Source: Fragum whitleyi (Eukaryota; Mollusca; Bivalvia; Cardiida; Cardiidae). From it: a DNA stretch of 64,000 nucleotides. How positions within the stretch are numbered: the stretch's first letter is position 1; the number at the start of each line of letters is the position of its first letter. The notes below the pieces were generated by a model that saw nothing but the letters and a program-made list of their open reading frames with translations, was not told where the DNA came from and searched no databases. Below are positions 1,168 through 41,816 of the stretch, one piece after another. A program made the position numbers and the translations under genes. The DNA is taken from contig OX411543.1 in assembly GCA_948146395.1 (NCBI GenBank), positions 20,748,026 through 20,812,025 of the forward strand, written 5' to 3'.

Positions 1168-1678
1168 GATTCAAGATTCAAGATTCAAGATTCTTTATTG
1201 AACAGATTTGATCTTTACAGATCTTCATCTCAGCAATTTACAAACAATATGATATGGTATTAGTACAGTCGAAATATTTCTTTGGAGTGTTAGTGAATAA
1301 GGTAGTATCAAATATGAAAATTAAATATGAAAATTAAATATCGTTGACGGAATTGCGTAAAATTTTGTCTGATATATAAGGAGAGCGATGCAACAACCAA
1401 TGAGCATAATTGATCTATCATGCTCATTCCTTGCCACAACAGCCCCGCTAATACAGGTCACCTATTTGTTGTATACTATCTATTGCCGATCGACAACCAC
1501 ACCATCACAGCCACGAAGTATTATCTTCGTGAATGTGTTGCTGCGCCAGCCCATCAACATTCTGGTACTTATAATGGTAAAGATACCAATGTAATGTATT
1601 GAATATTATTTTGAATAATCGGAGGGTGAACCCACAATGTTTACTTTTCAAACAAAGTTCCATAAGATAAGTTTGTTT
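1168..1678 (-). mobile_element. 3' untranslated region and terminal microsatellite of CR1/L2-like LINE
   Basis: Read on the minus strand, the stretch after the LINE stop codon (1678) runs about 500 bp. It contains an imperfect stem-loop (AGATCTGTAAAGATC, 1210-1225 region), then CAATAAAG, and ends in three or four head-to-tail copies of GAATCTT (1168-1194). LINEs of the CR1 and L2 groups typically end in a stem-loop plus a short tandem repeat instead of poly(A), so I take this as the true 3' end. I saw no clear target-site duplication. Confidence 0.55.
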
Positions 1679-4581
1679 TATGAATAATTATATGAGGAAC
1701 GGCGCAGATTAAACGCTTCAACAACAAACTTACTAAGGTTTTTCTGAATAGTACAGTTGTTAGTGCTCATAAGATCAACAAATTTATACATGTTTGGTCG
1801 TGTGTAATAGTATTTCTTAATATATTTATTTCTGATACCTGAGTACAGTGGACAGATAACGACAAAATGGTACTCATCCTCTATGTCATTCTTATCACAA
1901 AAAGTGCATTTTCTCTCATTTCGACTTAACCGTCGGTTCGCGTATCGCCCGGTTTCGATAAGAAGTTTGTGTGATGAAAGTCGGAGACGCGATAAAGCCG
2001 TTCGTTGTCTAAACGGAAGAATATCGAGGTACCTTTCAATTTCAATTTCTGCCTTTATTTCGATATAAAGTCTTAAGCTACTTTTAGATTTAATGCCATT
2101 AAACCACGATTGCTTAAAGACATCAATAACCCTGTTTTTAAAAACTTGATGAAAACTTTTCAAATTTACGCTTGATGGATTTTGGAATACAATTGAGAAA
2201 CCGTAATTATCCAATAAACTTTTAACATCTCTTAACCAATTTTGATTGCCATTATAATAATGTTTTAGCATATCGGTGTATATGCATTGAATAATAAAAT
2301 TATCTGTTTGTATCAATTTACACCAATACTTGATAATGCGCGTGTAACGATTTACATAAAGCGGGTAGCGTCCAAGTTCGCTATATACGGCCAAGGAACA
2401 GGTAGATTGTTTAACATTTAATAATCTTTTGCAAAATTTCAGATGTACTCTCTCTATTTCCTTACACTTGCTAAATCCTGTAACTTCTACGGCATAGTTC
2501 ATAGTAGAGCTAACAAATGAATCGAATAATTGACACTGAACAGACGGTTTCACATGTAAATTGCGCAATTTATTCATTAAAACATTTAATGCTTTCAAAC
2601 CCTTGCCTGCTAGAGTCTCATTATTGACAGAGAACGAACCATTAGAACTAAATACAGTCCCTAAATAATTAAAACACTGAACTACTTCAAGTTGTATATT
2701 ATCATATGACCAAGTATACGTTGACAATGTGTTGGCTCGTTTTTGGAATACCATCACTTTGGTTTTTTCGGTGTTAACTCGTAACCCCCATTTCCTACAA
2801 TATTCATACAATAAATCAAGACGCCGTTGCAGATCAAACTGACTGTTGCCCAGAATGACCATATCATCCACAAACAAAAGTATAATCATTAATATATCAT
2901 CAATGGTTATACCACAATTTGCGTCATCCTGCAAAAACAACTCCAAGTCATCTACAAAGAGTGAAAATAAGATAGGGGAGATAACCTCGCCTTGTTTCAA
3001 ACCTACTACGCATTCAAAATAATCCGAGTACGAGTTGCATCCCTTGACACATGATTTTACCGAGCTATACATGCTTTTGATAATCTTAAAAATTTTCCCA
3101 TTTAATCCTTTGTGAAAAATTTTGTAACACATATTGTTCAGGTTAATACTATCGAATGCTTTTTGCAGATCGACAAAACAGCAAAAAAGTTTTTTATTTT
3201 CATTTAATATTTTATCGATTATTGATTTGAGAATAAATATCGCATCTACTGTAGATCTTCCTGAACGAAATCCACACTGCGCATCACTTAAAATCTCGCA
3301 ACTTTCTATCCATTTAGTAATTCTATTATTTAAAATACCGGTAAATATTTTTGAGAAACAACTGACTAATGTGATACCACGATAATTGCTTGCTTCGCAG
3401 GGGTCATTTTTCTTATGCAAAGGCACAATAACGCCTCTTGTCCAAGAATCTGGAAAGTGCCCAGAATCTAAAATAGCGTTAAATATATCGACTAAATAAG
3501 GGCAAAGAATATCAATCGATTCTACGAAATATTCATTTATAAGACCGTCTAGAGCACAAGATTTATTACTCTTTAGGGATCGTACCACCTTAAAAACCTC
3601 ATCCGCATTTATACGCGCGTTTAACTCCGGCGTTTCATAATCATCGGCACTCATTTGAAAATTATCGCAAAAATCGTTTGCTTCTGTCACGCCAGGGGTA
3701 ATTAGGTCGTTTTGTAAACCTGAAAAGTATTCGCAAAAAGACTCGACGTCAATACTTTCATTACGTTTTGCTCGTTTATTCGAGAATAATTGCCAAAACG
3801 CTCTTGGTTGAGAATGTCGTAAGTTTACAAGTTCGGTACACTTCTGTTTTTGATACAATCGTTTTTTACGTTTAATTAGACGTTTATAGATAATTTTCTT
3901 ATCGCACATAGCAATTCTATTGGCGTTACTTTTACGTTTATTGAAATTATTTCTGCACGTTATATATTCCGACTGAGCTTTACGGCACTCGTTATCGAAC
4001 CACTTGTTCTTATTGCACAGCGGACTCGGATCAGCATAATCAAATTTGAATATCTTATTTTTTGCGGCTACCTTAAAAAGAGGATCCGCGATTTCTGTAA
4101 TTAAGCTTGAAAAATTGTTAACGACAGTGTCAATAGAATTGCTATCATTCGAATTTAAATTTAAAACTAATCTGTTTAAAACTGGGAGCTGCCCAATTAT
4201 GTTTCGCCGAAAGTCATCTCTAAACTCAGATTTCCATTTCACGCTCGACAAACTAGATTCCACGTCTAGATCATTGACTGAAGTACAGCAGTAAATACTT
4301 AAGGACAATAACGCATGATCGGACCACTCATTAAATGGGTGAATCTTAAAGTCATTGATACAAAACATTTCATCGTGACTAACGAGTAGATAGTCAATCA
4401 CACTTGAGCCGTTGCGACTTGCAAATGTATACTCGGCTGTGCTTTGCAGACGCCCATTAGCTATACGTAATGAGGTAGATTTACAAAGGTCAATCAATTT
4501 ACTACCGAATGAGTTACACACTAAATCGGGTGTGTCACGTGACAATGGAATGTCCGCACGATAATTGTGATCATCTATCAA
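1678..4581 (-). pseudogene. Non-LTR retrotransposon (CR1/L2-like) polyprotein: end of endonuclease domain, reverse transcriptase, C-terminal zinc knuckle
   Basis: The open frame of 967 codons holds the C-terminal part of an apurinic-type endonuclease (SSVIDYLL, WSDHALL near residues 60-90), then a reverse transcriptase at about residues 330-600. Visible RT motifs are DGLINEYF, NYRGITL, the catalytic CFVDLQKAFDS, GLKQGEVISP and LLFVDDMVILG, where FVDD replaces the common FADD. A CxxC...HxxxxC knuckle (CTFCDKN...HFVVIC) lies near the C-terminus. Such proteins nick target DNA and copy their own RNA into it. A single in-frame TAA (about 4591-4593) separates this frame from the upstream endonuclease frame, so the copy is inactive as it stands. 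The first codon listed (TTG) is not a real start. Exact clade placement within the jockey/CR1/L2 group is inferred. Confidence 0.9.
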
Positions 4582-4587
4582 AACATT

Positions 4588-5190
4588 TTAACGGTCATAC
4601 TCTATGAAATCTTTACGTTTGCCCGTGCGAGCATTAAAATCCCCACAAACCAAAACCCTACCTAAACTAGAATATTCCAAAATATCATTTTCTAACAATG
4701 AAAAGAAATCAACGTCATTAGTATTATAAAGTGGCGAATTTTCAGGCCAGATATAAACACCTGCTATATAAATATCATTTTCTATTTGGAAAAAATATTT
4801 GTCCAATTTTAACCAAATAATGCTTTCCAGCTCTGATTTAATAACAGTTACCCCTTTTCCAACATTGTTTTTAACATACAAACAAATCCCGCCGCTAGAG
4901 CGTTTTGCACGCCTATTTAAGACCTTACGAAAAAAATTATATGATGTGTAACCATTAATATTGATTTTGGAATTTACATTTGTCCAGCTTTCAAATAAAA
5001 AGCAAATATCATAAGAAGTGATTATTTTCACAAAATTTGGGTCTTCAAGTTTATGCCTAGTAAGCCAAGTGAACCAATTTCATTTAAGTAAACTGATTTA
5101 TATTCACTCGACCATCGTGTAATATTTTTGCATGTTACTTCAACATTATTTTTATCATAGTGAAAATGTTTTAACATTGTCGGCGGAGTG
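4588..5190 (-). pseudogene. Same LINE: N-terminal endonuclease portion, with stop and probable frameshift
   Basis: Codons 5031-4588 encode the N-terminal half of the endonuclease (SYDICFLFESW, RSSGGICLYVK, RVLVCGDFNARTG), with the conserved E of FESW and the GDFNARTG motif visible. The frame ends at a TAA that lies in phase with the RT frame downstream, so the break is one nonsense codon. Upstream, an ATG near 5180 opens about 45 codons in another frame that end near 5030. A one-base frameshift around 5050-5060 would connect them. This suggests an old, mutated full-length or nearly full-length insertion. Confidence 0.75.
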
Positions 5191-7719: not shown

Positions 7720-8211
7720 CTGTCGATCCCGAAAACTTTTTACCATCAACTTGACCTTGACCATGAATAAAGGCAATTGACAAACTCTGACCTTGACTTT
7801 TGATTGATATGAACATAAATTTATCCTATAACTATACAAATATCCGTGTGTATAAAGTGTAGCAGGGTCGTGTTTGACCTTTAAACCAGGGTTTTGACCC
7901 CCAGAAATATGGAAATATCCTAATTTGACCCCTAGAAATTTCTCCCAAGGGGGTCATTTGACCCCCTTGAGATGTATTACTAGGGGTAAAACATGGTTAA
8001 TTTCCGTTGATTTTCATAAAATTACTATTACTAAAAGTTCTAAAAATTAATAACTTGTTTCATAAAATTACAAAAAAATGCTTTTTCTCCTTTGACTCCT
8101 TTAAATTCAGATTTGACCCCCAGAATTTCTTAGGTGAGGAGTCAATGACTCCCCGATATAAATAACTAACGTGAGCCCTGTGTAAGTGTGGTTAATGTTT
8201 GTGAGGCAACA
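7720..8211. other. Non-coding flank left of the duplicated segment
   Basis: Contains short repeated phrases (TTTGACCCCC/CCCAGAA, 7870-8160) that look like a small internal tandem repeat. No exon of gene 2 was recognised here, although later exons of that gene would be expected at or beyond this side. Confidence 0.35.
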
Positions 8212-8684
8212 ACATTGCCACCAAAAGTCAACACTAGCTAATATTCCGCCGATAGCGTGGACGTCATATCTTCAACTCCAAAGACAAATTTGTGATCACA
8301 TAACCTCGACGTTTTTCTCAAAAACCGCCAACATTAGAATAAGCAAAATTTTCTTTTTTTCAATAACCTTTTTTCATTATGGTTCTTCGTCTTATTGTCA
8401 TAATGCTGTTTCTGCATTGATGCAGACAGTACAAGAACTTCACTTTGAAATAAAACTAAAATAGACGACACGTGACTCTTTACCCACAAAAGAATACTGA
8501 CTCTGAAATTATACGTAATTAGTCGATATATTTTCCTATGCTTAAAAGAATAGTCATTTTTCGATCTAACATTCTGAACAGTACACACTACACACTGTAG
8601 TTTTTTAAAGTTATAATTTCAACATAAGTGTTTCAGAGATCTCTTTTGAAAATCGTACTTCATTTAGCTCAGAACAATATTTAC

Positions 8685-8854
8685 CTCCCATTATACCTCC
8701 GTAAAAAGACTTGTCGTTCTTCGTGTCACGCATGAATGACGCAGACATAAAGTTATTGAAGGGTGACAATATTATGGCATTTCCTTTACGATCGAATATG
8801 GTCAATGGCCCTGCTTGTATACCGTAGTTTATTTTTGCGCTCCTGTTGAAGAGC
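8685..8854 (-). CDS. Gene 2 (unrecognised secreted protein), exon 4, duplicate copy A
   Basis: Identical to the exon at 15885-16054, with both splice sites intact (CACTTCAG before it, GGGAG/GTAAAT after). The 170-nt exon opens in phase 2 and closes in phase 1, encoding about 56 residues including AGPLTIFDRKGNAIILSP, NNFMSASF and FYGGIMG. It lies on the far (3') side of the LINE from the rest of the gene. If both copies were spliced in sequence, the frame would shift, so at most one copy can be used productively. No later exon was identified inside the window. Confidence 0.7.
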
Positions 8855-8914
8855 CTGAAGTGGATAGTTATGGCACAGCCCTCCTGTTGCTTTATCTGGA
8901 TTTTTAACATAAAG

Positions 8915-9148
8915 TTAACCCTTTCCTATTTTACAAAATTTTGGACCTGTCCAAATTCAAAGGTTTTGCAGACGAAAATTAAAAATGGATTTAATTTGAA
9001 AAATAACCATTCAGTATGGTAGAAAATAGTGTGAAAAGAAGAAATTGCTTGTCAGAAGCAATTTCTTCTTTTTTCACAATGTTTTCTCAATGATAATATT
9101 ACAGGCACGTAAAAAGCAGGGATTAAATAGCAAATGGTTAAATGGCAT
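8915..9148. mobile_element. TTAA-flanked MITE, family 2 (copy a, inside duplication copy A)
   Basis: Begins TTAACCCTTTCCTATTTTAC and ends GCAAATGGTTAA, with inner sequences GGACCTGTCC and AAAGCAGGGATTAAA. It contains a hairpin AGAAGAAATTGCTT/AAGCAATTTCTTCT (9039-9072). Relatives lie at 16115-16348, 19497-19711, 46797-46985 and 57177-57410. The TTAA flanks again suggest piggyBac-type mobilisation. It is identical in both copies of the 1.96-kb duplication because it was carried along with it. Confidence 0.75.
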
Positions 9149-10192
9149 ACTGTGGTAGCTTTATGAATGAAAGACACAAGACGACATTTTCAGTGAACCT
9201 TTAAAACGGTAACAAAACTGAAATAGAGTTGTTGTTTTCTTCAAATTGAGCTTCTTCATGCACCCTATTATCTTTATAAAAAGAATATATTTTAGATCGA
9301 GCATTCGAACCTGATAAACTATGTCTGCACCGAATATACTAGATTCGGTGCATTGAACCCCTGGTGAAGAAACATTGAGTTTCGAAAGCGCTAGGGATAT
9401 TTATGCTTTTGGCAAAAATCCAAACTACATACACTGTTTGAATACATTTAAATTCAATAACCTTTTTATTGTATACTTTGATATTGTTAGACGATATTCA
9501 CTTTTTATTTATTATTTTTTTACATCACCTATACTTCAAGAACGGTTTTGAAGTTAAATTTAAACCGCTTTTAAATAACAGTTACGCAATAGACCTTTTC
9601 CCGCAAAATCCTTTCCGTTATATTTTTACGTTCGGATGAATACATCCGTTGCTATGAAGTGTAAACAAAAAAGACGGCGGACATTTTTTGTGTCGATTCT
9701 CATTTTCGATCTTTAAATACGCGTCGATTTCGACTTACTTTGAATAAAAATGAAATAAAGATATTTATAAAAACTTGTTCATATGTTATTCTTACCAGTT
9801 ACACGTTCCAGAACTGACTAAATCGGCGTACTTGATTCCGGAGCAGACTAGCGATAGTCATGAAGGACGTGATGGAGTGAAAGACGAAATAAAGAGAAAG
9901 ATAGGGAGGAAGAGAGATAGACACTAGAATAATGGTAGGCACAAAAGGATGTGCATGAAATAGTTTTGAAAGAATTATGTTATAAAATATCAAAAGAAAA
10001 GAGAAACAAAAACAGTGATTTGGAAGAAATTTGAGGGGGCGGGGGGGGGGCATCTGAGTCGACGGAGATGGGGAGGGGATGAAGTGGTATATTTCTCGGA
10101 AAATGTTTCAAATAGATGAAAACAAACACTGGTGAATTAACCTTTAGGCATTCAAAGAACTTGAAACGTTTTTTTTTTTTTTTTTTTTTTTT

Positions 10193-11338
10193 CATATATA
10201 TATTTTATTCAACCAAGTTTACATTATCATATTATTTTAGATGTCTATATCTACATTTTATAATATGTCACTTGTTTTATTTGGTTTGTTTGAACCGCGA
10301 TATTGTGACCTTTGGGAAAAAATGGTCTTAAGTCCGAATCAGTAATATTCAAAGTAATATTTTTGTTTTTGTTTTTTATCTTAAACAGAAAAGTCCCCCA
10401 AAGTGATTGAAAGATGTTATTGTTTAGAATAACCGATATTTCGAAAGCGTTAATTTGGCGCGTTCTTTTAGAACGTCATAGTCCCAATTTGGTCATTTAT
10501 TTTTATTTATTTATTTATTTTTTGTAAGCAAGTGACATATTATATTTGACGAATTATATATAAACATAATATCATATAGACAAACAGTTCATATTTGATA
10601 ACCCATTTACATTTTTAAAAGTTGATTTAAAGATGAAAGAATACTCTAATTAAACGTTTTAGTAAAGAGGAAAAGGTCAATTTAAACGATTCTTTTTCGT
10701 ATATTTATTTTCGATTATTCGGTGTATTAAACATAATGTCGATTCTAAACTGAAACTCTGCAACTACACCCTAAATCAAGCCATAGTTACAAGCTTCCGA
10801 ACAAATACGACGATATGTTTATCTATTTCTTTTTGTGTAGATTGATGACAGATATTATTGCGTAAAATAAATATATGAATTGTAGAACTTATATTGCTAA
10901 CGCTATTTTAATAAACCTTACAACTACAGCGTTTGTATTTACAAGATTCTAGAACAATCGTTATCCATTATCCATTAATTGCTTTGTATATGAACTGTTA
11001 ATTATCAACATTAATCTATACTGATGAACAAAAAGGTTTCAGTTTGTGTTTTCGGTAAAATGGCAATTGTAGATGGGTTATCAACTTTCAATGTGGAAGA
11101 ATAAAATATATCATTTAAACATATTAACAACATAAACAGTATAAAATAACAAAAAAAATGGTTCTAACGGTGTAAATAGAAAGAAAAAAGGAAAGATATA
11201 TGTGAAGATGTTACTACAGAAAGTAAGTACATCACTTCTTTTACATCATAAGGTGTTCTTGGTGTTTGTTACTAACATTATGTATTTAGCGTAGGTCAGT
11301 TTAGATATTTGAAGATTTCTTATTCTTTTTTCTTTGTC
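10193..11338 (-). other. 3' UTR of the L1/Tx1-type LINE
   Basis: AT-rich, non-coding. It contains an inverted repeat ATAATATGTCACTTG (10258-10272) / CAAGTGACATATTAT (10529-10543), a TTTA microsatellite (10501-10520), and AATAAA close to the tail on the minus strand. Confidence 0.6.
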
Positions 11339-13297
11339 TTAATTACTGACTCGAGTGATGCTTTTGACAATTGCCCAATATTTTTCAAAGTTTTTGTTAG
11401 TTTTTGTTTGAATATTTATTTCGTATGACAGTTTTATATTTTTAGTAAATCCTCGTATGGATGGTTTTATTTGTTTCATTTTACACGTATAAATGTATCT
11501 CTTAAAGTACAGGCATATTAAGTCTATATCTAGTTTCGTATTTGTACCAAATAGAATATTAAAGCTATTTAAATCAAAATTTCCATGGATAGTTTGTATT
11601 TGTCGTTGAATGTATTCTATTAATGGTTTTACATTTTCACATCCGTAAAATAGGTGGATTAGTGTTTCATCGTCTTTATTACAAAAAGAGCATTGTTTAC
11701 TTTCTGATATATTCATTTTATATAGGAGAGAATTAGTTGGCAAAATTCGATGTACGATTCTTGTTTGGAGCCATTGTAGATACGTATCCGGGGTAACTTT
11801 ATATACAGAGGTGTACACTCGATTCCAGTTAAATTCAAAATTGTGAAACGATTCCATCCATTTTTGTTGACTTGTTGGAGTATAATCATTGTTGGAAAGT
11901 GTTGAATATATAAATCTGTTAGGTTGTTTTTTTGAAAGTATCGGAAAGAAATAGCAGTTAACACATGGATTGTGTACTTGCATTAACAAAGAATTATCTG
12001 TCTCAATATTCTGTTTATTTAGAAATGTTGAAACTGCATTGCGTAGACTATAATAGTTCAAAAAGTTAATGTTGACGTGACCAAATTGTTGTATTTCCTG
12101 TAAGTTTTTAAAAGTTCCATTCTTATGTAATATATCTTTAACGTATCGTATTCCTCCATCAAACATTGCTTGATTTCTAACGCATTTTGATCCAATAATA
12201 ATATTTTCATTGTAAAAGAGAGGAGCATGTAGTATTTGATTCCATTTTTCGAATTTGAACTTGGAAATATATTCTATGTAAGAATTGATAACATCTACCC
12301 AGAAGTCATTCTTTAGACTTTTCACAATTATTTCGCAATGCTTTTTTCCATAATTTAATAGCTTGTTTATATCTAAAAAGTTATATACAAGTTTAAAAGT
12401 TGAGCTATATGGATTTGATACCAATTGCTTTAACCATTTAATTTTCATGCTGCTTGAAAAGTATTCGACATCTGGGATTTTTAGGCCTCCTTCTTGAATT
12501 GGTTTAATTCCTACCGAGGTTTTAATCTTTGGTCGACCGTCCCAAATAAAAGTTTGGAAGGTTTCATTAATCTTTTTCATTAAATCGTTTTTCGGTGAGG
12601 GCAAACTAATAAATAAGTGATTTAATATTGGCAATAAAAGTGTTTTAGTGACAACTATTCTACCAAGTGGCGTTAGTTTCCTCTTTTTCCAGAAGGAGAT
12701 CGACTTGTCTATACTTTTAATTTTACTTTCAAAATTGAGACAATTCATTCTTTCTAGATTTACATCAAATAGTATTCCTAGGAGTTTAAATTGCGTTTCA
12801 CCCCATGAAAGTTTCCATCGTGTTTTAATTGAACGTGTACTATATTTTAGTGAACCAATCCATACGAGTTTTGTCTTATCAAAATTAATCTTTAAACCTG
12901 ACCATTCTGAAAATGTATGCAAAGTATCTAAAACTGCGTTAAGAGACTGACTTGTTCCGTCCATTAAGAGAGTAGTGTCGTCTGCAAATTGTGAAATTAT
13001 ATATTCTTCTCCACCTATTTTGATTCCAGATATGTTTTTAGAATTTTTTATTTTCATATTTAGTATCTGAGCGCAAAGAATAAAAATATAAGAAGAAATA
13101 GGATCACCCTGTCTGCAGCCTCTTTTTATTTTAAAATATTCTGACATGTAACCGTTAAGTTGAACACAAACTTCGGTATCATATAGAAAGAGTTTAATCC
13201 ATTTTTGAAGCATTTCCCCAAAATTAAAAAAAGTTAAAGTTTTTTCAATGAACTGAAAGGACAATGAGTCAAATGCTTTTTCAAAGTCGATGAGCAT
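11339..13297 (-). pseudogene. L1/Tx1-like ORF2, second part: RT catalytic half and C-terminal domain
   Basis: Continues the RT begun upstream: LIDFEKAFDS (first catalytic Asp), RGCRQGDPISSYIF, and SQFADDTTLL with the FADD catalytic pair. It ends with a CxxC...HxxxxC knuckle (CSFCNKDDETLIHLFYGC). The join to 15136-13325 is in frame and broken only by one TGA at 13325-13327; nine further codons precede the first Met of this part. This is the L1-group arrangement, with endonuclease and RT in one long ORF. One nonsense mutation makes it a nearly intact but dead copy, unless the TGA is a sequencing error. Confidence 0.9.
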
Positions 13298-13324
13298 TAA
13301 TAGACCTGGAATGTTATTTTCTTC

Positions 13325-15136
13325 TCAATATTTCATTATGTCGTATACTAATCGTGTATTTTCTCCAATATACCTGCCTTTAATAAATCCTGTTTGGTCT
13401 GTTGATATCAACTTATCGAGAATATTTTTTAGTCTGTTGGCTATTGTTCCTGACGCTAATTTATACAAAACATTTAACAAGGTAATAGGTCTCCAATTTT
13501 TCAGAAATTGTTTGGGCTTATTTTCTTTTGGAATACATATTATTGTTCCAAGTTTTGTGTTTCTAGAAAGTGAACCATTTATGTATGAAAAATTTAATGC
13601 TCTAACTACAAAATGTCCTATTTTTGTCCAAAACATTTTATAAAAGTTTGATGTGAATCCGTCTATTCCAGGACTTTTATCGTTTTTCATTTGCTTTAGT
13701 GTTTCAGTAACTTCTTTGTACGTTAAAAGACCTTCTAGACTGCCAGATTCTTCCGAGCTTAATTTATCATATTGAAATTTTGAAAACTCCTTTGCTAAAT
13801 CAATATTCTTTTCAAAGTTATGGCGTTCATCGTATAATAATTCATAATATGTTTTCATTTCATTTAATATACCTTTTTGTGAGAATATTTGATTGCCATT
13901 TTCAGTCTCTAAAAATGGAATATTCTTATTTAAAGAATTTTGTTTTTCAAGATGACAAAAAAATTCAGTAGATTTTTCGCCTTCATCTATCCATTTTGCT
14001 TTTGATCTTATAAAAGAACCCTTTAATTTTGTTTCTCTTATTTCTTTTAGCTCTGTTTCAAGTTCAAAAAGTTGTTCTTTATTCTGGTCATTTATGTTAT
14101 TTTGCAAATTATTTATTTCTGTGATTAGTGACTGTTCTCTTTTATTTCTTTGCTTTTGTTTAAAAGATGAATAAGAAATAGTTTTTCCTCGAATCTCCAT
14201 CATTAGTGTTTCTAGGAAAAGTTGGTCATTTATAACGAATTGCAATTCGTCTTTTTCTAGATACAAAACATTATTTACATCGTAAACTGGAATGCAGTAC
14301 TGGATAATTATTTCATCGATTTTTTTATTTATGCATTCAATATAATTTTTGTCATTTAAAAGTGAATTGTTGAATTTCCAAAAACCTTTCCCATGTTGGC
14401 ATATCGAGAATTTTAGATCTAAGACTACAATCGAATGATCTGACTTATAACTTAAATTGATATCACAGTTTTTAACAAATTCGTTAAGATTAGTTGTTAT
14501 TAAAAAGAAATCTAATCTTCCTTGTTGAATAGGATTATTTCTTCTCCATGTGTACTTTCTTGTTTCACCATTAATGTTTCGAAAGGGATCTATTAATTGT
14601 CGATCAGATATGAAAGAAAGTAACACATTTCTGCTATTTAAATTGTGGTTATTCAATTTATAGTTTTTATAATCTAGAACTGGATCCAACACCAGATTGA
14701 AGTCACCACATACGATATATTTATCATTTATAGCCATTGAATCTATAGCTTCAAATATATTCATAAAGAAATTAGGAGTGTCATTGTTGGGGGCATATAT
14801 ATTAACTAGAAGGAAGTCTGAGTCTTGAAACGAAAGTTCCAATATAAGAAATTGCCCGACGTCATCTGGTTTAATGCGATTGACCTTTATTCCCGACTCT
14901 TTGCGAATTAAAATGCCCACCCCTTTTGCATTGGATTTACCATGACTAAAGTAACAATCCCCATTCCAATCGGAATATACAGATTTTTCTAATTCAGCAG
15001 TAAAGTGGGTTTCTTGTAAACAAATTATATCGGCAGATTTTTCTTTAAAAAGGGAAAATAAGTCATGACGTTTTTTGGTATTGTTCAAGCCTCGGCAATT
15101 GTAAGAGATTATTTTTAAATTATCGACGATAATGTT
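13325..15136 (-). pseudogene. L1/Tx1-like ORF2, first part: endonuclease and RT fingers
   Basis: The frame extends upstream of the first recognised residues to a stop near 15137 and reads IISYNCRGLNNTKKR, the usual start of an apurinic-type endonuclease. ICLQETHF, GVGILI, YIVCGDFN, RLDFFLI and KSDHSIVVLD follow as endonuclease motifs. RT motifs are DKSPGIDGFTSNFYK, NWRPITLLN and DQTGFIKGRYIGENTR. No ATG precedes the endonuclease within the frame, which fits a truncated or mutated 5' end. It ends at an in-frame TGA (13325-13327) and continues as the 13297-11339 part. Confidence 0.88.
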
Positions 15137-15884
15137 TTAAATATTTTTTTATATCCTACGCTTTTATTATTCTTAAATAACAATATTTGCTGAGTGCAAT
15201 TCATTTTCGAGTAAAATAGTCTTAAGGTTCTATTTTCTGAAGTGATGTACTGCTTTCTACACATCTTTCCTATAAAAGAATCAAGTAAGAATACCATTTT
15301 AATTGAGCTTAGAATACACGTCTATTTTTAGTGTAATAGTTGGGTATGAAATGTATTTCTAGACAAACTTTACGTGTATATACATACATATACATGCACA
15401 CTTATGCATACACATTGCCACCAAAAGTCAACACTAGCTAATATTCCGCCGATAGCGTGGACGTCATATCTTCAACTCCAAAGACAAATTTGTGATCACA
15501 TAACCTCGACGTTTTTCTCAAAAACCGCCAACATTAGAATAAGCAAAATTTTCTTTTTTTCAATAACCTTTTTTCATTATGGTTCTTCGTCTTATTGTCA
15601 TAATGCTGTTTCTGCATTGATGCAGACAGTACAAGAACTTCACTTTGAAATAAAACTAAAATAGACGACACGTGACTCTTTACCCACAAAAGAATACTGA
15701 CTCTGAAATTATACGTAATTAGTCGATATATTTTCCTATGCTTAAAAGAATAGTCATTTTTCGATCTAACATTCTGAACAGTACACACTACACACTGTAG
15801 TTTTTTAAAGTTATAATTTCAACATAAGTGTTTCAGAGATCTCTTTTGAAAATCGTACTTCATTTAGCTCAGAACAATATTTAC

Positions 15885-16054
15885 CTCCCATTATACCTCC
15901 GTAAAAAGACTTGTCGTTCTTCGTGTCACGCATGAATGACGCAGACATAAAGTTATTGAAGGGTGACAATATTATGGCATTTCCTTTACGATCGAATATG
16001 GTCAATGGCCCTGCTTGTATACCGTAGTTTATTTTTGCGCTCCTGTTGAAGAGC
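15885..16054 (-). CDS. Gene 2 (unrecognised secreted protein), exon 4, copy B
   Basis: Acceptor CCACTTCAG/G and donor GGGAG/GTAAAT bound 170 nt. The preceding exon (17946-18100) ends with AG in phase 2, and the first G here completes AGG (Arg). The residues then run LFNRSAKINYG, AGPLTIFDRKG, ILSPFNNFM and GGIMG. The phase match is the main evidence that this is a real exon. I do not recognise the product with certainty; the block order faintly recalls a large uncharacterised invertebrate family of secreted glycosidase-like proteins, and I do not rely on this. Confidence 0.75.
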
Positions 16055-16114
16055 CTGAAGTGGATAGTTATGGCACAGCCCTCCTGTTGCTTTATCTGGA
16101 TTTTTAACATAAAG

Positions 16115-16348
16115 TTAACCCTTTCCTATTTTACAAAATTTTGGACCTGTCCAAATTCAAAGGTTTTGCAGACGAAAATTAAAAATGGATTTAATTTGAA
16201 AAATAACCATTCAGTATGGTAGAAAATAGTGTGAAAAGAAGAAATTGCTTGTCAGAAGCAATTTCTTCTTTTTTCACAATGTTTTCTCAATGATAATATT
16301 ACAGGCACGTAAAAAGCAGGGATTAAATAGCAAATGGTTAAATGGCAT
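16115..16348. mobile_element. TTAA-flanked MITE, family 2 (copy b, inside duplication copy B)
   Basis: Duplicate of 8915-9148, identical in sequence: same TTAACCCTTTCC and GGTTAA ends and same inner hairpin. Confidence 0.75.
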
Positions 16349-17373
16349 ACTGTGGTAGCTTTATGAATGAAAGACACAAGACGACATTTTCAGTGAACCT
16401 TTAAAACGGTAACAAAACTGAAATAGAGTTGTTGTTTTCTTCAAATTGAGCTTCTTCATGCACCCTATTATCTTTATAAAAAGAATATATTTTAGATCGA
16501 GCATTCGAACCTGATAAACTATGTCTGCACCGAATATACTAGATTCGGTGCATTGAACCCCTGGTGAAGAAACATTGAGTTTCGAAAGCGCTAGGGATAT
16601 TTATGCTTTTGGCAAAAATCCAAACTACATACACTGTTTGAATACATTTAAATTCAATAACCTTTTTATTGTATACTTTGATATTGTTAGACGATATTCA
16701 CTTTTTATTTATTATTTTTTTACATCACCTATACTTCAAGAACGGTTTTGAAGTTAAATTTAAACCGCTTTTAAATAACAGTTACGCAATAGACCTTTTC
16801 CCGCAAAATCCTTTCCGTTATATTTTTACGTTCGGATGAATACATCCGTTGCTATGAAGTGTAAACAAAAAAGACGGCGGACATTTTTTGTGTCGATTCT
16901 CATTTTCGATCTTTAAATACGCGTCGATTTCGACTTACTTTGAATAAAAATGAAATAAAGATATTTATAAAAACTTGTTCATATGTTATTCTTACCAGTT
17001 ACACGTTCCAGAACTGACTAAATCGGCGTACTTGATTCCGGAGCAGACTAGCGATAGTCATGAAGGACGTGACGGAGTGAAAGACGAAATAAAGAGAAAG
17101 ATAGGGAGGAAGAGAGATAGACACTAGAATAATGGTAGGCACAAAAGGATGTGCATGAAATAGTTTTGAAAGAATTATGTTAAAAAATATCAAAAGAAAA
17201 GAGAAACAAAAACAGTGATTTGGAAGAAATTTGAGGGGGCGGGGGGGGGGGGGGCATCTGAGTCGACGGAGATGGGGAGGGGATGAAGTGGTATATTTCT
17301 CGGAAAATGTTTCAAATAGATGAAAACAAACACTGGTGAATTAACCTTTAGGCATTCAAAGAACTTGAAACGT

Positions 17374-21648: not shown

Positions 21649-21929
21649 TTGATTGATTGATTGAATGGAGTTTAACGCCGCTTTCAACATTATTTTTAGT
21701 TATATCGCGGCGGCTGGAGCACCTAACAACGGATTCCTGGTATTTCTATCACCAGTACAACCATTACATTCTTTCCTAGCCTCCAGCTACTATCTCACAT
21801 AGGTCTACGATTATCAACCCATTGGTGAGAGACAAATAGTCGGAAAGAATGAGTGCCGCCGTCGGGGATCGAACCCGGGACCTCTAGATTGTAAGTCCGA
21901 CGCGCTACCAACTGCGCTATGACGGCGGC
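21649..21929 (-). mobile_element. Full-length tRNA-derived SINE with target-site duplication
   Basis: On the minus strand it opens with a tRNA-like head (21929-21854): GCCGCCG/CGGCGGC acceptor arms, A-box TAGCGCAGTTGGTAGCGCG and B-box GGGTTCGATCCC. Five bases instead of two separate acceptor and D arms, so it is not a working tRNA gene. A body of about 200 bp and a TTGA/TCAA tail repeat follow. Imperfect direct repeats CACCAAAAGGGGTATAGA (21631-21648) and CACCAAAGGGGTATAGA (21929-21945) flank it as the insertion duplication. Confidence 0.88.
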
Positions 21930-21945
21930 ACCAAAGGGGTATAGA

Positions 21946-22377
21946 CTACAGTTATTAACATCATGTAAGTGATAAGCTGAATTATTTTGGAATGATATTG
22001 AATGAGATTATTTGGTTCGGATTGAATGCAGTTTGCCGCCGCTTTTAGCATTCAGTTATATCGCGGCGGCTGGAGCACATAACAATGGATTCCTGGTATT
22101 TCCAGTACAACCATCACATCCATTCTTAACCTCCAGCTGCCGTCTGACATAGGTCTACGATTATCAACCCATTGGTAAAGACAAATAGTCGGAAAAGAAT
22201 GAGTGCCGCCGTCGGGAATCGAACCCGGGACCTATAGATTGACAGTCCGACGCGCTACCAACTGCGCTATGACGACGGCCAGTGCGTGGAGCGAGTTTTA
22301 AATGAAATTTAAGGGAAATACAAGATCGTTGATTCCGTCCGAATTGGTCGAGATCATGGAGAGTTGAAACATACCTT
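21946..22377 (+). mobile_element. TACAGTTA-type MITE, decayed copy interrupted by a SINE
   Basis: TACAGTTATTAACATCATG opens the element as in the full copy at 34512-34949. GGAATGATATTGAATGAG and then, after the SINE, GTGCGTGGAGCGAGTTTTAAATG continue its body. The right end is missing or replaced by the TTAA MITE at 22378. Confidence 0.5.
22022..22279 (-). mobile_element. tRNA-derived SINE, nested in MITE
   Basis: Same layout as 21649-21929: tRNA-like head (22279-22205, B-box GGGTTCGATTCC, A-box TAGCGCAGTTGGTAGC), body, and TTGAATGCAGTTTGCCGCCGC 3' end. It lies inside the TACAGTTA-type element and is shorter than the neighbour by about 20 bp of body. Confidence 0.82.
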
Positions 22378-25939: not shown

Positions 25940-26510
25940 TCACGATGATTTAAATTCTGCTGCCAGTAAAAATGTTAAAAATATATAGAAAAAGTTTTCG
26001 AGGCACTTGAATATGCTAGCACCATTGTTCAAACCACAGTCTCTTAGTGCGTTGACCACTAACTGTCCGTTTGGACTCAAGCTCATTTTGTGTTTGACCC
26101 AGTCCCCAATATCCCCTCGAAGACACGGATTTGTCAACAGTTTACTCGCGAGACGTGTACAGTTCTCATGGCACATCCGGTTTTTGACGTAGTACCCACA
26201 ATTCTCCAAGGCATAAAATTCAGAGTATATCCGTTGTGTTTCAGGGTCCTTTGCATCTAACAATTTTCTCCACTCACAATCGCCAATCATTCCTTCATAC
26301 TTCGGTAAATACCTTCGACATCTTTGCACTGATTTCCAGCTTGCACAAAATGTCGGACCGATGTGGTGTACCGGATAGTAAGTGAGAAACCCATAACACA
26401 TTTCGTCTGAAGTCCCTTCACCGTATATAACTGGCCGTGAACTATTTGAACTGTATTTACAGGTTGTCCTGATTTCATCACCTGGTTTAACTTCTATTGG
26501 AGGGTCAAAA
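25940..26510 (-). CDS. Gene 1 (temptin/DBH-like copper monooxygenase), last exon
   Basis: Acceptor TTTTGCAG/T; the preceding exon supplies CA to complete a His codon. The frame reads FDPPIEVKPGDEIRTTCKY and SDEMCYGFLTYYP, which match the end of the DBH/PHM catalytic core; the Met of EMC is the expected ligand of the second copper. A Cys-rich tail of about 110 residues follows, then a hydrophobic end (FFYIFLTFLLAAEF) and stop. DBH-like MOXD proteins often carry such a C-terminal anchor, so the enzyme is probably luminal or cell-surface, held by a GPI or single membrane anchor. Confidence 0.88.
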
Positions 26511-27098
26511 CTGCAAAAGAATATTTTCTTGAACGTGTAGCTTTATTCTTAACAAATTGTCAATCTCAACCCGCATTGTTCAAGTTTTACGCATACCATA
26601 CCTAATCAAGTACAAATTAGGCAGAGTAGGCTAAGATCAGACTGCACGTCTGTACAGGTCTTAGTCCATACTGTCTGCCAAAGCTTTCTATATGACATGA
26701 AGAGGCATGTAAAGGGTGAATTTTACTGAAAACGATCTTCGGGGAATATTTTAAGCTTTAAATAATCAAAACGCACCCAATATTAATTAAAAAGCCGGGC
26801 TGCGTTCAGGATTCAAACACGGTTGCAACGATTTAAAGTGGCATCCCGCTTCGCGCGTCAGTGTGTTGGGAAAATATTACGTTTTGAAGTTATCCAACTA
26901 TTTTTGTTAAATCATTTTTTTTTTTTTTTTGCACTTTTAAGATCTTATCTTATTACTCTTACTTCATTTTCTATACACAAAGAATAACATCATTGCAAAA
27001 TTCCGATTACAGGTGACCAAATACTGATGAAAATTATGTTAAATGTTATTTTTTTATATCCCTACGTCAAATGATGTAGAATATTAGAATACACTTAC

Positions 27099-41539: not shown

Positions 41540-41816
41540 GCCGCTGTCATAGCGCAGTTGGTAGCGCGTCGAACTGTTAATTTAAAGGTCCCGGGTTCGA
41601 ACCCCGACGGTGGCACTCATTCTTTCTGACTACGTGTCTCTCACCAATGGGTTGATAATCGTAGACATATGTGAGATAGCAGCTGGATGCTAGGAAAGGA
41701 TGTGATGGTTGTACTGGTGAGAGAAATACCAGGAATCCATTGTTGGGTGCTCCAGCCGCCGCAATATAACTGAAAAATGTTGAAAGCGGCTTAAAACTCC
41801 ATTCAATCAATCAATC
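41540..41816 (+). mobile_element. tRNA-derived SINE, full length, plus orientation
   Basis: The head (41540-41614) has acceptor arms GCCGCTG/CGGTGGC, A-box TAGCGCAGTTGGTAGCGCG and B-box GGGTTCGAACCCC. The anticodon region is not paired well and the D arm is displaced by three bases. Body blocks (CAATGGGTTGATAATCGTAGA, ATACCAGGAATCC) are the reverse of those at 21649-21929. The tail is CAATCAATCAATC. Confidence 0.88.

Follow-up and report, generated by a model that had tools for sequence, protein, structure and literature searches.

A 5'-truncated LINE in the window (the whole 64-kb stretch of DNA analyzed here) lies between two direct copies of a 1.96-kb target segment, and we put at roughly 0.84 the probability that insertion and duplication come from one retrotransposition event, in which a nick would have primed a truncated cDNA whose end was joined by microhomology to a DNA end 1.96 kb away. 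The anatomy supports a one-step origin: the repeat brackets the LINE exactly, and tail, AATAAA signal, truncation and microhomology are all present. The duplication exceeds 1 kb, is unusual for its LINE family and was apparently made with the insertion, which places it among aberrantly long target duplications.

The duplicated segment

The two copies form a direct repeat with a 99.9% match (1958 bp at 8212-10169, 1962 bp at 15412-17373), which excludes chance by a wide margin. Alignment confirms the differences named in an earlier sequence-only reading of this DNA, two bases and one G-tract, as substitutions at 9873/17073 and 9983/17183 and a single 4 bp difference in G-tract length.

8212..10169, plus strand: duplicated target segment, copy 1; right end cut by the LINE tail, left 1233 bp matched at the two copies only among the candidates scored
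15412..17373, plus strand: duplicated target segment, copy 2; continues rightward into the original chromosome
8915..9149, strand not assigned: older dispersed repeat (~230 bp) carried inside the duplication; second copy at 16115-16349

The genome searched with the segment comprises 1.22 Gb in 38 contigs, and the best 40 of 5266 first-look candidates were scored. Among those 40 the left 1233 bp of the segment match the two copies only, an 84% inverted match of this part falling inside the segment itself, and neither a third placement nor a second haplotype copy of the segment appears among the best 40 of the 5266 candidates from the 38 contigs.

The LINE between the copies

10170..15411, minus strand: 5'-truncated LINE with L1-like ORF2, 5242 bp including tail
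10170..10192, minus strand: 23-A poly(A) tail, reading as T on the plus strand; position 10169 (T) could belong to tail or target
10204..10209, minus strand: AATAAA polyadenylation signal, read directly from the sequence
13328..15136, minus strand: ORF2 first part, APE-type endonuclease and start of reverse transcriptase (Pfam PF03372, PF14529, PF00078)
13325..13327, minus strand: single in-frame stop codon that breaks ORF2 in this copy
11342..13324, minus strand: ORF2 second part, remainder of reverse transcriptase and zinc-binding domain (Pfam PF00078, PF13966)

The AATAAA signal stands 11 nt before the 23-A tail, so the 3' end is RNA-derived, as the sequence-only reading had held. Among solved proteins, both parts of ORF2 match human LINE-1 ORF2p (8.6e-55 for the first, 6.5e-29 for the second), which ranks above R2 proteins; candidate names for the clade, presumably, would be L1 or Tx1. 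The frame is open over 1265-1266 codons in five of the eight other copies compared. The 1.2-Gb genome yields 610 first-look candidates and 54 listed matches for this family, which is young and multi-copy. The closest protein relative found outside is 56% identical, and with a 56% relative as query no relatives were confirmed in viral contigs.

A second, different LINE occupies 1678-5079 on the minus strand, with a reverse transcriptase in a 969-aa frame and an endonuclease in a 163-aa frame, and has only ~23-28% identity to relatives of the LINE at 10170..15411. Elsewhere in the window three tRNA genes (Val, Asp, Asn) are predicted at 21853-22276 (minus strand) and 41543-41616 (plus strand); their surroundings are repeated too, as 242-nt arms at 90%, and they are perhaps tRNA-like repeats instead of plain tRNA genes. 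An open frame at 25943-26542 (minus strand) matches the copper type II ascorbate-dependent monooxygenase C-terminal domain (PF03712) and is probably an exon.

Right edge: insertion into an older repeat

9445..10169, plus strand: dispersed repeat T, copy cut by the LINE; 725 bp, the last part of the segment
16645..17600, plus strand: dispersed repeat T, complete, 956 bp; spans the insertion point

Besides these two, 38 matches to repeat T are listed at 93-96%, along with three more divergent or broken copies. Fetching 28 loci out of these 41 gave 30 alignments of at least 900 columns, two shorter pieces at one locus (L006) being excluded, and every one of the 30 crosses the insertion point without a LINE, one of them with an 11-bp gap 4 nt past that point. 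Because repeat T is uninterrupted both there and beyond copy 2, the right flank of copy 2 represents the original chromosome; and since the repeat elsewhere runs through the insertion point with no LINE in it, the LINE went into a repeat that was already there. These alignments also polarize the two substitutions: at 9873/17073 the base of copy 2 is found in 30/30, and at 9983/17183 that of copy 1 in 28/30, and therefore one substitution arose in each segment copy. All three differences between the copies lie toward the right end of the segment, inside repeat T; with a polarity of one substitution per copy, this clustering was set aside as a signal. The last base of the segment (T, 10169/17373) is indistinguishable from the LINE tail, leaving the edge ambiguous by 1 bp.

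Repeat T carries a short inverted motif at its ends, on account of which it may be a non-autonomous DNA transposon, and at three places it forms tandem pairs ~1.05-1.09 kb apart.

Left edge: truncation and microhomology

15412..15415, strand not assigned: ATGT (minus-strand reading) shared by LINE family and target at the 5' junction, a 4-bp microhomology; also present at 8212-8215

Homology between the segment copies ends at the T-run of the tail and, at the far end of the LINE, at 15411/15412; it extends past neither LINE end. To this extent the earlier claim of exact ends stands, but the edges are ambiguous by 1 and 4 bp. The boundary at 15411/15412, which had been taken for the LINE's own end, is a truncation point: all 13 other copies that reach it continue upstream, sharing family sequence over at least 2 kb in 10 of the 13 and over 99 bp in the shortest case, and of 11 full-length copies retrieved with 2 kb of upstream sequence, 9 have their 5' end at or past the limit of that sequence. 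The 4 bp ambiguity exists because ATGT is common to the LINE family and the target, and this shared motif would fit joining by microhomology, as in the L1-mediated deletions for which PMC7058536 gives 1-5 bp of microhomology (median 3) at the 5' junctions of 47/63.

The left edge itself lies in unique sequence, the repeat in the adjoining flank (about 7861-8181) stopping ~25-30 bp short of it. Among best-scored matches, that repeat recurs at 38 other places with 73-86% identity. A post hoc resemblance between the two nick sites (p ~0.02), at which both cut strands read AAYGT/, was dropped, the second edge being ambiguous by ATGT.

With both junctions described, the possibility can be weighed that haplotypes or contigs were wrongly joined in assembly, so that one segment is shown twice. 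The near-identity of the copies is what this would predict, but the 64-kb window contains no N, the segment has no third placement among the candidates scored, and each copy carries a derived substitution of its own. The junctions also speak against an artefact, since at one of them the poly(A) end is intact and sits in repeat T, which is found uninterrupted after copy 2, and the other bears 4 bp of microhomology. We regard a misassembly as distinctly improbable.

Target duplications in the rest of the family

Exact direct repeats of at least 9 bp occur near the junctions of 9/18 other copies of the LINE read at both ends, as against 3/306 mispaired flanks, and are about 10-18 bp long where present; for canonical human insertions PMC12350158 gives a median target duplication of 21 bp. 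Two of the nine positives are less tidy: at C8:15154372 a gap of 17 bases separates the end of the repeat from the matched start of the LINE, and at C11:34504530 the longest match, of 11 bp, lies off the junction, with a 10-bp match near it. A further copy, C16:6769448, was read but is outside the 18, its 3' end not being at a tail.

Five of the nine copies lacking a 9-bp repeat were searched further upstream, over ~4 kb, the other four (C6:24125413, where 8 bp was found, C17:38083978, C5:11525740 and C16:4072813) falling outside this search. Upstream of four copies it returned chance matches only over the ~4 kb, and the same search recovers the window's own duplication as a positive control. 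In two further copies no short repeat was seen within left flanks of just 1478 and 329 bases. The sequence-only reading had proposed looking for long flanking duplications in other family copies; carried out in part, this yielded no LINE-made one in the seven copies examined beyond their junctions (5 + 2).

The fifth copy belongs to a duplication of another sort, at C15:37302194-37321302, in which each unit combines several kilobases of flank with the 3' part of a same-family LINE. The LINE parts are 99.6% identical (4097 columns) and the flanks 99.2% (2550 columns) and 96.5% (a further 1616). It was revealed by the alike 3' flanks and missed by the 4-kb search alone, because the stretch searched began ~0.5 kb past the end of the first LINE. 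As a second long target duplication this pair is ruled out; it is a tandem duplication of LINE part and flank.

The C15 case gives real substance to the idea that in the window, too, an ordinary tandem duplication came first or carried the LINE along as a passenger. At C15, however, a same-family LINE lies left of the duplicated flank, whereas none lies left of 8212 in the window, for which reason the window's duplication is not a LINE-carrying tandem duplication; and a LINE landing exactly on a pre-existing duplication junction would be a coincidence. We give this explanation only a very slight chance, the smallest of any considered. An LTR retrotransposon or Penelope-like element with long terminal repeats is ruled out, as the repeats do not travel with the LINE: the left 1233 bp of the segment matched at this locus only among the candidates scored, and other LINE copies have other flanks.

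By the copies read, then, long duplication is not a habit of the family, and the 1.96-kb duplication is exceptional among the copies examined. The ordinary copies share with the window's LINE a tail, AATAAA and 5' truncation, and differ from it in the length of the direct repeat, about 10-18 bp where found against 1.96 kb.

Age and origin of insertion and duplication

Private substitutions in the window's LINE number 8 over 5158 columns, fewer than in any other of the nine copies compared, which together with one substitution per segment copy speaks for youth. Divergence between the segment copies predicts only ~2.6 by simple arithmetic, a point against the one-step reading, although private substitutions also include changes in the source lineage and in copying; the rates of LINE and segment are not detectably different (binomial p 0.12), in a comparison that is weak as a guide to age. 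Judging from these counts, insertion and duplication may be of one age, and we infer that they were made together.

The same anatomy, clean LINE edges included, is predicted by unequal crossing-over between two same-family LINEs in the same orientation, sitting at the two segment ends on different alleles, which would leave one hybrid LINE between the copies; and the family, being young and multi-copy, could supply such elements. The main objection is rarity, two same-orientation insertions within 2 kb on opposite alleles of a 1.2-Gb genome being required, with odds that we roughly estimate at ~1e-3 or less. Segment-wise comparison with 8 copies gave no clear hybrid, weak evidence with just 10 informative sites. 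We consider crossing-over improbable, if by a little the best placed of the rival explanations.

The preferred reading, a single retrotransposition event, would run as follows. With the LINE on the minus strand, the primer comes from the plus strand, which the LINE endonuclease would have nicked at 5'-GAAACGT/ATTTC-3', inside the older dispersed repeat, where the opposite strand reads AAAGAAAT/ACGTTTC. The sequence-only reading had given this latter, minus-strand sequence as the target, which is the wrong strand. The LINE RNA tail would prime first-strand synthesis at the plus-strand nick, and reverse transcription would halt 5.2 kb into the RNA, short of its 5' part. The free cDNA end would then join, through the ~4 bp of ATGT, a DNA end ~1.96 kb downstream in the LINE sense, with the consequence that the intervening sequence is retained twice. 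That second end would be an independent nick or break, placed most probably on the sister chromatid while the DNA was being replicated or later; we prefer the sister chromatid because two opposite nicks at such a distance on a single duplex would require 2 kb of DNA to be unwound. Where the second end came from, and that a sister chromatid took part, are postulates, and sister-chromatid joining and distant nicks on one duplex would each account for this locus, which does not distinguish them.

An RNA-templated insertion with an exceptionally long duplication made along with it is what the sequence-only reading had proposed, and that core survives; it now has a 5' end truncated with microhomology and a nick on the strand opposite to the one chosen there. 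The site does depart from TTTT/AA, as had been remarked, but this has little force, the family's short-duplication sites lacking that rule as well (by eye).

Comparison with known systems

What this locus offers is a natural case resolved to the base, in which ordinary insertions of its own family act as internal controls, comparable outcomes in the papers cited here coming from cell lines and tumors. If the one-step origin is true, a LINE in nature can generate a kilobase duplication in a single step. Its signature, a direct duplication with a truncated, tail-bearing LINE at the joint, is countable across genomes, and counts could serve to ask how often repair choice at LINE insertions yields segmental duplications. 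That germline insertions in this lineage sometimes bridge sister chromatids, as a regular source of kilobase tandem duplications each marked at its junction by a truncated LINE, is a doubtful extension at present. In the literature searched, no kilobase duplication made by a LINE in a natural germline was conspicuous, and we do not claim its absence from print.

The earlier statement that L1-linked kilobase duplications have been reported only rarely was too low an estimate: in NER-deficient human cells L1 target duplications measured between 5 bp and 5.3 kb (median 1495 bp), and a distant second nick was proposed (PMC5223499). Those insertions, mostly tail-bearing and flanked by duplications reaching kilobases, resemble the present one, but came from an engineered L1 in cultured cells, where ours is natural, presumably germline, and of another LINE family. 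A 5' truncation combined with radical change at the target site is likewise shared with HeLa insertions of human L1 in cell culture, in which 5'-truncated elements were often accompanied by such changes, extremely long duplications included (Gilbert et al., as cited in PMC2912911).

In tumors, L1-mediated tandem duplication by bridging of sister chromatids has been described (PMC7058536). There, as here, a LINE lies at the junction of a direct duplication and the second break is downstream of the integration site, and the direction of the window's duplication agrees with the sister-chromatid scheme of that paper (its Fig. 7 legend); the tumor duplication spans 22.6 Mb and is somatic, whereas ours measures 1.96 kb. 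The event is therefore not new in kind, and is a clean natural example of a known outcome.
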